Source of the DNA: Candidatus Eiseniibacteriota bacterium
GTDB taxonomy: Bacteria; Eisenbacteria; RBG-16-71-46; CAIMUX01
NCBI GenBank assembly: GCA_903844735.1
Contig: CAIMUX010000003.1
Span: 1 to 64,000, forward strand
Length of the DNA stretch: 64,000 bases
Direction of reading: 5' to 3'
Part shown: positions 57,805-60,464 of the stretch, piece by piece
How the letters are laid out: each line of letters begins with the position of its first letter
Position numbering within the stretch: the stretch's first letter is position 1
Program-made: the position numbers and the translations under genes
The notes under the pieces: model-generated
Database searches by the model: none
The model's input: the letters and a program-made list of their open reading frames with translations, nothing else
Told to the model about the DNA's origin: nothing

Positions 57805-60402
57805 CTACCTCACGACTGGTAAAGACATCGCAATTTCCCGACCAGAAGGCAGGCGGACCGTCACGTAGTACATTCCGGAGATGCCCGGTGAAGCTATCTC
57901 ACACTCGCAGGACCCGGGGCATTCCGTGGCTCCTCGTGAGATGAGCCGCCCCGAAACATCCACCAGTCGCCAGTTGATGGTGCCCCGTCCGACATCCGTC
58001 AGGCTCAGAATCGTACCGCCTTGGCTGCTCGGCGTTCCAAGGAGCCGAACCTTCTCCGGATGTCGTTCGCTGCTCGGTACGCCCGCGGAACCACGATGGG
58101 CAACATCCAGGCGTAGGGCGTCGATCGTACAAACCTCAAGCCCACCGGAATGCTCAAAGACCGATATGCCGGCCCACCCCTCTCCAACAGCCGCTGCCTC
58201 GTCGAAAACATAGGTGTTGTCAGGCTGAAGCTGAAGGACGATCTCGCGATTCTCGTTCTCGGAGAGAAAACTCACGTTTGGACCGTCGATCCTGGCTACC
58301 GCAGTCTGCTCCCCGGATCTTGACGGCATCACGAATCGGACCCTCCCCTCATCTCCCTCTGGTGAGAGAACGAAGAAGCCAAGGTAGCTGCCGCTGGCCA
58401 CGCGGGTTTCAAAACCTGTGAACATCTCACCGTTCCCAAACCCGTCAAGTTCCTGCGTGAAACCACGCCACTCATGGGACCCCTGTGCTTGCACCGGGGA
58501 GTATGCACCGAACCAGAGGGGCTTGTATGGGTTAGTGCACAGCAAGGGCGGCAGTTCGTCCGGACAGTGTCTCTGTCCGAATGGCCCCTGAAAGGCGAGA
58601 TTGTCCATTCCCGGCTCCCCGCCGTGCGACTCGCTCCAGTGACCTGTGAGCCATGAGCATCCGTCGGCTTCTCCCGGATGCGTGAACTCCCCCATCGGAA
58701 CTAGGGCATCGTAGGGGAAGTACAGATGTCCACCATAGGGGTTGTCACAGATGTTGTAGTCAACATGATCATAGTAGTCATCGACGATGGGCGCGTGTAT
58801 GGCATAAACACCTTCGTACCGGTTGTACGTGCCGTGCCCATTTGCCGCGACCCAGACGTGGACGTGTGTACGGTCGGGCACAAGGCCGTGGACCAAGCCG
58901 AGATAACTCTTCGCGTCCGTGTTTGACCACCAGCAGTCCTCAGCGAGAAAGGTACGTCCGCCTTCGTGTTGGTAAAAGTTCACCTCCAACGGCACCCATT
59001 TCTGACCCGTGTTTGCCACCTTGACCGCGACCCACTCCCAGTCTCCCTCATGCCACGATCCCGGCCCTACCATCTGCCGTTCGTCATTCCCGTTGAAGTA
59101 CATCCAATATTGAACCACGGCGCAGCCATCCTCGGTCGGAAACACGTGGTAATAGAGCGGCCTCTGCCCCTCCGGGGCACCGGCATGCAGCAGATCGTCT
59201 GCCGGATCAAACTGGAACTCAATCCCTGGCATGGTTCCACCGCCGTAGCTATCGGCATCACCGCATGACTGATACATATAGTGCAGGTCGCTGGGGCTCG
59301 GTTCCGCGTCAAGCTGCACGCCGCTAGTGAAGAAGACCCGAAGTGCCGAGCCCGCAGCCGACATCGACTGCCGAAAGTCGGCCAAGTCCCCCTGCAAGTC
59401 CCACCTGTGCTTGTGAAGCACGGGCGACAACTGAGCGGCCAAATCCGCCTCGCGAGTAACATAGTAGGTCGTGCCGCTATGGTAGGCCAGCACCAGTGCG
59501 TGATACTCCCCGTTGCCATCGACCTCCTTCAGACGGGCATAGAAGGATTGGTGTACGGTGGTCTCGTAGGACCAATCGCCCCTGGGCCAGCAGCGATGGT
59601 ACGTGAACGTCGCAGTCGCAACGCCATCCGCGTTGGCGATTGCCTCGACTTCACGCTGGCGGAGCACCGTGTTGGAGCACTGCGGCGAGTTGCAGTCCTC
59701 ATCTGGACAGTCCGTGTACAAGTAGTTTTCACCAAGCACCACGGCAACACCGGCAACCGGCAGATGTGTCTTGTCGTCAAGGAAACGCGCCGAGAAGATC
59801 TGAGGATCAGGATCCCCCTCTTCTCTCGTGGAATCCGCCTGAGGGCACGGGAGATAGCCGGGCTTGCCCAACCCGAGGACTCCGAAATCGACGATCGAAT
59901 CCTCGGTCCCCGGCGAACCATCGTCAGCGAAGACACCGCCCTGGGTAGGATGTGGGACGAGCGCAAAGGTGATCGAGTCTGGTGCTTGCTCCGAGTAGGC
60001 ATACCCCGCAAACCAATAGGCCTCCGTGAGAAGCTCCGTCTGGGTGGATGTCCAGCTCTGTCCGGTACCCGTTCCCGGGGCCGGCCAGCCTCCATCCGCT
60101 ATCTCGAAGTCCGCGCAGGTTCCGTGTCCGAGCATGATGAACTTCGCCGAATCGTACTCGATTCCGAAAGAGATCCTCTTCAGCCGCGGTTCCGCCGATG
60201 GAGGAAACGCCGCGATCGCGTAGAAGACGCTGGGTGCTCCGCTTGCCCAAGGGAGCGTGGCGACCGCGCTCGAGCATGCCGTAAGTGCAGAAAGGCCGCA
60301 GTAGACTTGGATATCACTGGTATATGTCACGGAACTCGCGTGGAGGATCAGCGTCCCCCCGGCGTTGGGCCCTGCAAGCGCGGCGCCAGGCAAGAGACTC
60401 AC
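57805..60402 (-). CDS. large secreted VPS62-like protein with sorting domain; probably phase-variable start
   Basis: 865 residues from the GTG at 60400-60402, but this start has no ribosome site and gives only half a signal peptide (SLLPGAALAG). The natural start is ATG ATG at 60458-60463 behind GAAGGA. A (CT)15 tract between them (60403-60433) currently puts it out of frame. Domains: about 20-140 beta-rich (SIVDFGVLGLGKPGYLPC), about 180-290 Ig-like with CPDEDCNSP and ATATFTYHRCW, about 400-650 VPS62-like (VVQYWMYFNGND, WHEGDWEWVAVKVANTGQ), and a C-terminal FlgD-like sorting domain (INWRLVDVSGRLISRG, GMYYVTVRLPSG). Cell-surface or secreted. Its activity is unknown. Confidence 0.75.
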   Translation of the reverse strand: MSLLPGAALAGPNAGGTLILHASSVTYTSDIQVYCGLSALTACSSAVATLPWASGAPSVFYAIAAFPPSAEPRLKRISFGIEYDSAKFIMLGHGTCADFEIADGGWPAPGTGTGQSWTSTQTELLTEAYWFAGYAYSEQAPDSITFALVPHPTQGGVFADDGSPGTEDSIVDFGVLGLGKPGYLPCPQADSTREEGDPDPQIFSARFLDDKTHLPVAGVAVVLGENYLYTDCPDEDCNSPQCSNTVLRQREVEAIANADGVATATFTYHRCWPRGDWSYETTVHQSFYARLKEVDGNGEYHALVLAYHSGTTYYVTREADLAAQLSPVLHKHRWDLQGDLADFRQSMSAAGSALRVFFTSGVQLDAEPSPSDLHYMYQSCGDADSYGGGTMPGIEFQFDPADDLLHAGAPEGQRPLYYHVFPTEDGCAVVQYWMYFNGNDERQMVGPGSWHEGDWEWVAVKVANTGQKWVPLEVNFYQHEGGRTFLAEDCWWSNTDAKSYLGLVHGLVPDRTHVHVWVAANGHGTYNRYEGVYAIHAPIVDDYYDHVDYNICDNPYGGHLYFPYDALVPMGEFTHPGEADGCSWLTGHWSESHGGEPGMDNLAFQGPFGQRHCPDELPPLLCTNPYKPLWFGAYSPVQAQGSHEWRGFTQELDGFGNGEMFTGFETRVASGSYLGFFVLSPEGDEGRVRFVMPSRSGEQTAVARIDGPNVSFLSENENREIVLQLQPDNTYVFDEAAAVGEGWAGISVFEHSGGLEVCTIDALRLDVAHRGSAGVPSSERHPEKVRLLGTPSSQGGTILSLTDVGRGTINWRLVDVSGRLISRGATECPGSCECEIASPGISGMYYVTVRLPSGREIAMSLPVVR

Positions 60403-60433
60403 GAGAGAGAGAGAGAGAGAGAGAGAGAGAGAG
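60403..60433 (-). repeat. (CT)15 microsatellite in the signal-peptide coding region
   Basis: An uninterrupted 31-base GA/CT dinucleotide tract. On the minus strand, read in frame, it codes for Leu-Ser repeats that would form the hydrophobic core of the signal peptide of the 57805-60402 gene. From ATG 60463 to the passenger frame there are 61 bases. Gain of one unit or loss of two would restore the frame. Confidence 0.9.
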
Positions 60434-60464
60434 GCGGGACCAGGAATGGAGTCCAGGCATCATG

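Follow-up and report, generated by a model that had tools for sequence, protein, structure and literature searches.

A CT tract at the predicted signal-peptide core of an 865-codon reading frame: a candidate secretion switch in an uncultured Eisenbacteria lineage

Introduction

The locus described here raises the question of whether a gene for a putative secreted protein, in which the start codon and the main reading frame are separated by a perfect CT tract, is switched on and off by changes in tract length or has simply been disrupted. The gene lies on the minus strand of the window, i.e., the whole 64,000-nucleotide stretch of DNA that was analysed, which belongs to a Candidatus Eiseniibacteriota genome. 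In Helicobacter pylori, the oipA gene carries CT repeats in its 5′ signal-peptide coding part and its expression is switched by slipped-strand mispairing (PMC10564699), while the opa genes of Neisseria carry CTCTT repeats within the leader-peptide coding part and undergo frame switching (PMC3960869, PMC3899988). The initial annotation of this DNA called it unusual for the repeat itself to form the hydrophobic core; this was overstated, since in oipA and opa, too, the repeats fall within the part that encodes the signal peptide.

Start region and reading frames

The likeliest start codon of the gene is the ATG at 60461–60463, placed 8 nt downstream of a Shine-Dalgarno-like GAAGGA element (60472–60477), and the 5′ end of the minus strand reads GAAGGA-TGTCCCCC-ATG(60463)-ATG-CCT-GGA-CTC-CAT-TCC-TGG-TCC-CGC up to the CT tract. 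The tract (60403–60433) comprises 31 nt without interruption, corresponding to 15 CT units and one additional C (15.5 copies with 100% match by TRF), and is followed by GTG-AGT-CTC-TTG-CCT-GGC-GCC-GCG-CTT-GCA-GGG. The first of these codons, GTG 60402, opens a frame of 865 codons that ends at 57805. The distance from ATG 60463 to GTG 60402 is 61 nt, which places the two in different frames in the assembled allele, and the frame of the ATG runs through the tract and is closed by a TGA at 60314–60316, yielding a product of 49 residues. The ATG with its GAAGGA element, the tract, the GTG and the long frame had all been described in this form in the initial annotation, whose arithmetic on the disagreement of the frames was right.

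The tract is therefore an uninterrupted repeat, with a unit that is not a multiple of three, located between a start codon and the main frame. On the coding strand, CT repeats contain a stop codon in no frame, so that only the frame matters: with some unit counts the ATG leads into the 865-codon frame, and with the others translation terminates early. Two further ATGs, at 60472–60470 and 60460–60458, are in frame with ATG 60463, and the choice of start codon among the three leaves this argument unchanged. GTG 60402 itself is a poor alternative start, lacking both a ribosome-binding site, as only CT repeats occupy the Shine-Dalgarno place, and a signal peptide, as only ten residues are left before the cleavage site. 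The fact that 865 codons have stayed open despite a disconnected start indicates that the frame is, or was recently, translated.

A scan for σ70-type promoters upstream of the gene found nothing. A tetranucleotide repeat of 4.75 copies (60612–60630, minus strand; ACGG on the plus strand) lies some 150 nt before the start; it is the sole other four-copy tetranucleotide within the window and may be a further variable site in the leader.

Position of the tract relative to the signal peptides of paralogues

Nine paralogues of the same genome could be read upstream (on contigs C90, C71, C1 twice, C103, C53, C83, C28, and C27), and each of them begins with an ATG that follows a purine-rich, Shine-Dalgarno-like stretch. 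They encode signal peptides of 26 or 27 residues, such as MTTRSRSLNRLLCVGLLLFIPGLTLA↓GPNEGGTLILHANP (the arrow marks the cleavage site), and their cleavage regions are of the GPNEGG type. The focal gene matches these paralogues on both sides of the tract. The residues before it, MMPGLHSWSR (60434–60463), align with the paralogue n-regions, and those after it, VSLLPGAALA (60373–60402), correspond to the end of the h-region and the c-region, with a signal-peptidase motif ALA↓G comparable to ...PGL(A/T)LA↓GPN in the paralogues. The alignment covers ...SWSR on the upstream side of the tract and LLPGAALA↓GPNAGGTLILHAS on the downstream side, and the passenger frame carries the cleavage site ALA↓GPNAGG. 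The tract occupies the place of the segment that encodes LLCVGLLLF in the paralogues, which is exactly the hydrophobic core.

When read in frame, the tract consists of alternating Leu and Ser codons, and the best 9-residue Kyte-Doolittle mean at the junction of tract and c-region was 2.31, within the paralogue values of 1.81 to 3.20. The in-frame N-terminus would present a positively charged n-region, a hydrophobic core and an A-X-A cleavage site, in agreement with its homologues. Together, these comparisons support the view that the tract codes for the hydrophobic core of a predicted Sec-type signal peptide, as the initial annotation had proposed from the focal gene and as the alignment of the nine ATG-starting paralogues through this point bears out. 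The repeat is found in the focal member only. The paralogue DNA at the tract position (CTCCTTCTCTTC) is already CT-rich, and a core of this kind is a plausible seed for the expansion of the repeat.

How exceptional the tract is

Given the dinucleotide composition of the window, the expected number of alternating C/T (or G/A) runs of 31 nt in 5.4 Mb is about 1e-11. The repeat survey, which covered CT and CA patterns genome-wide and, beyond these, individual stretches of the genome, recovered one CT run of at least seven units in the 5.4-Mb home genome, namely the focal tract, and no (CA)7. The 12-mer (CT)6 had ten overlapping matches in the focal tract and two isolated ones elsewhere; both of the latter were inspected as candidates and discarded, each lying amid several overlapping open frames and neither beside a signal peptide. 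Within the window, the next longest dinucleotide run was 10 nt, and the 46 further genomes searched from the phylum contained no run of (CT)9 or longer. The focal tract is therefore far longer than expected by chance and than the tracts elsewhere in its genome, and the results of both searches indicate that the lineage is not generally repeat-prone. Moreover, signal-peptide cores would make up roughly 0.2–0.6% of such a genome, assuming 300–900 exported proteins, and at well under 1% by this rough estimate, the position of the tract is unlikely to be accidental.

The encoded protein and its family

The mature protein begins with an N-terminal domain (59803–60372) that is 57–60% identical to eight paralogues in the home genome, the matches covering much of residues 3–200 of the 865-residue protein, and that is conserved more weakly across the order; weaker and truncated paralogues were also found in the home genome. 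This domain of about 190 residues, for which no Pfam model matched, is common to proteins with differing passengers (subtilase, beta-propeller, and others of unknown type), often with FlgD-Ig tails, and genomes throughout the order each contain many members of the family.

The passenger region (58063–59802) shares 35% identity with a secreted protein from a genome of the same family (G001), which has an ordinary signal peptide with no repeat and does not share the N-terminal domain. Searches of Pfam, NCBIfam and PDB returned nothing for the passenger, and for the focal protein as a whole, neither Pfam nor NCBIfam gave a match at E up to 10. A likeness of the passenger to the motif of Vps62-like domains (HEGDWE ... 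HVWVAA.(S/G)H) was discarded, as an HMM search of the genome with PF06101 gave no hit up to E = 10. A FlgD-Ig or T9SS-like tail is present at the C-terminus of several paralogues and of the G001 relative, and the corresponding C-terminal tail of the focal protein (57805–58050) had no HMM match itself. Structure prediction from the 865-residue protein together with its one relative gave a mean pLDDT of 34.

Downstream on the same strand there are genes for two related small proteins (56150–56848 and 56966–57796), the first of which resembles an outer-membrane beta-barrel (PF13568, just under the cut-off). Both may share a transcript with the focal gene.

An insertion element was also encountered in this family. 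Three paralogues are interrupted after ...CGMSALDS by an identical sequence, whose end falls at the same nucleotide on contigs C83 (9987–10097), C28 (13370–13474), and C27 (1–105); another contig, C60 (1–113), begins with what appears to be the opposite end of the element. The ends carry a 13-nt subterminal inverted repeat, GGACTCCTCCCGC, and a complete related copy in genome G004 encodes a transposase of the IS110/IS116/IS902 type (PF02371, PF01548). IS110 elements pick their targets by sequence via a bridge RNA, and the recurrent insertion point suggests that an IS110-family element targets the conserved N-domain DNA of the focal gene family.

A slipped-strand switch as the preferred reading

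Based on the sequence features described above, the CT tract is probably a slipped-strand ON/OFF switch for secretion of the focal protein, a reading to which a probability of about 0.6 is assigned. Slipped-strand mispairing during replication would add or remove CT units and thereby shift the frame. At one of every three unit counts, the ATG would be in frame with the 865 codons, so that a complete Sec signal peptide with a core of Leu and Ser would be made and the protein exported; the remaining counts would yield a short aberrant peptide (49 residues for the allele as assembled). A change from one in-frame length to another would also alter the core by two residues per three units, which may add a second, graded effect. 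From this arrangement we infer that the tract would mutate at a useful rate, that cells would switch, that the ON product would be exported, and that switching would be favored by selection.

In support of this reading, a perfect 31-nt CT run lies between a well-placed Shine-Dalgarno element and ATG and a long frame, and an equivalent repeat arrangement is a known switch in other bacteria. The focal gene resembles H. pylori oipA in its CT unit and in the presence of the repeat in the signal-peptide coding part, the mispairing switch itself being a proposal for the focal gene. However, H. pylori has several such genes, which encode outer-membrane proteins of a host-adapted pathogen and whose variation has been demonstrated, whereas the focal locus is a single gene with an unrelated passenger, known from one assembled allele of an uncultured, high-GC lineage. 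Neisseria opa genes, which are present in several copies per genome, share with the focal gene a pyrimidine-only repeat in the leader or signal-peptide coding part, but the unit is a pentanucleotide instead of a dinucleotide and the protein is unrelated. As far as HMM searches show, the focal protein is no homologue of the Hop proteins of H. pylori or the Opa proteins of Neisseria, so that the likeness is one of arrangement. Its closest relations are instead within the multi-copy secreted family of its own lineage, as it shares the N-terminal domain and the cleavage motif with the eight close paralogues.

Some observations count against a switch. Species known to be phase-variable usually carry several genes with such tracts, and no other gene of the home genome has a CT tract of this kind; neither do the paralogues or the G001 relative. 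In addition, a single tract length is available, from one assembly, which contains the focal 5′ region in no further allele or strain copy.

Alternative explanations

The strongest rival to a switch is recent inactivation, in which the tract would have grown by chance in a CT-rich core, the frame would have been lost, and the long frame would not yet have decayed. This explanation is considered unlikely, but it remains a serious rival because of the paralogue on contig C127 (G000 C127:19500-25500, around 23777, minus strand). This gene has an ATG with a good Shine-Dalgarno element, a frameshift in a non-repetitive signal-peptide core, and then an otherwise open frame of 942 codons (subtilase-like by eye), and may be a pseudogene, an assembly error or another OFF allele. 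As assembled, its start is out of frame through a difference that involves no repeat, and start-region frameshifts in this family thus need no switch, which also counts against the preferred reading. Recent inactivation is likewise favored by the lack of a counterpart of the tract in relatives and by the three further paralogues cut by the IS110-like element, which point to turnover in the family. On the other hand, the passenger frame contains no stop codons, and 15 perfect units are, by general experience, highly unstable, so that a fixed OFF state should revert in some cells.

Less probable still is a miscounted tract, with an error of one unit introduced by the assembler or by stutter in the reads; the majority allele would then be in frame, and expression constitutive or mostly ON. 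The ON/OFF state can hinge on one CT unit and only one assembly is available; several of its contigs end within sequence common to family members, which suggests that it is a short-read assembly. At dinucleotide runs of 31 nt, a one-unit error can arise from stutter in short reads or from the building of the consensus. Against this explanation, long genes elsewhere in the window have no frame breaks, so that the assembly is not visibly indel-rich, and a majority allele in the ON state would still bear an unstable tract, which would affect the state and leave the switch as proposed. The earlier statement that the protein is OFF stands insofar as the assembled frames disagree, but a stutter of one unit would change that state, and the qualification "currently OFF" is to be held loosely because such an error is easy at these tracts.

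Synthesis of the protein in the assembled state, from a start in the passenger frame or through transcriptional or ribosomal slippage on the repeat, with the tract irrelevant or of graded effect, is very improbable: GTG 60402 and CTG 60456 are both in the passenger frame, and RNA polymerase can in principle slip on simple repeats, but the GTG has only CT repeats at the Shine-Dalgarno place and would yield no signal peptide, the non-canonical CTG would give an n-region (LDSIPGPAS) with an acidic and no basic residue at a Shine-Dalgarno spacing of 15 nt, and every readable paralogue uses an ATG with a purine-rich, Shine-Dalgarno-like element.

Implications

The kind of switch proposed here is already known, and what distinguishes this locus is its lineage and the presence of tract-free sister genes. 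If the tract varies, a phase switch would have arisen independently, and apparently recently, in an uncultured lineage remote from the classic pathogens, with its tract-free paralogues still at hand in the same genome. The ancestral state would thus be visible, as Leu-rich CTC, CTT and TTC codons in the signal-peptide core that are able to seed a CT repeat. A broader reading, held tentatively and at somewhat less than even odds, is that a single-gene CT-tract secretion switch of the Helicobacter and Neisseria design evolved from CT-rich core codons in a lineage that yielded no other CT contingency repeat, which would make signal-peptide cores recurrent birthplaces of switches. Variation of the tract would support the view that these cores are natural sites for such switches.
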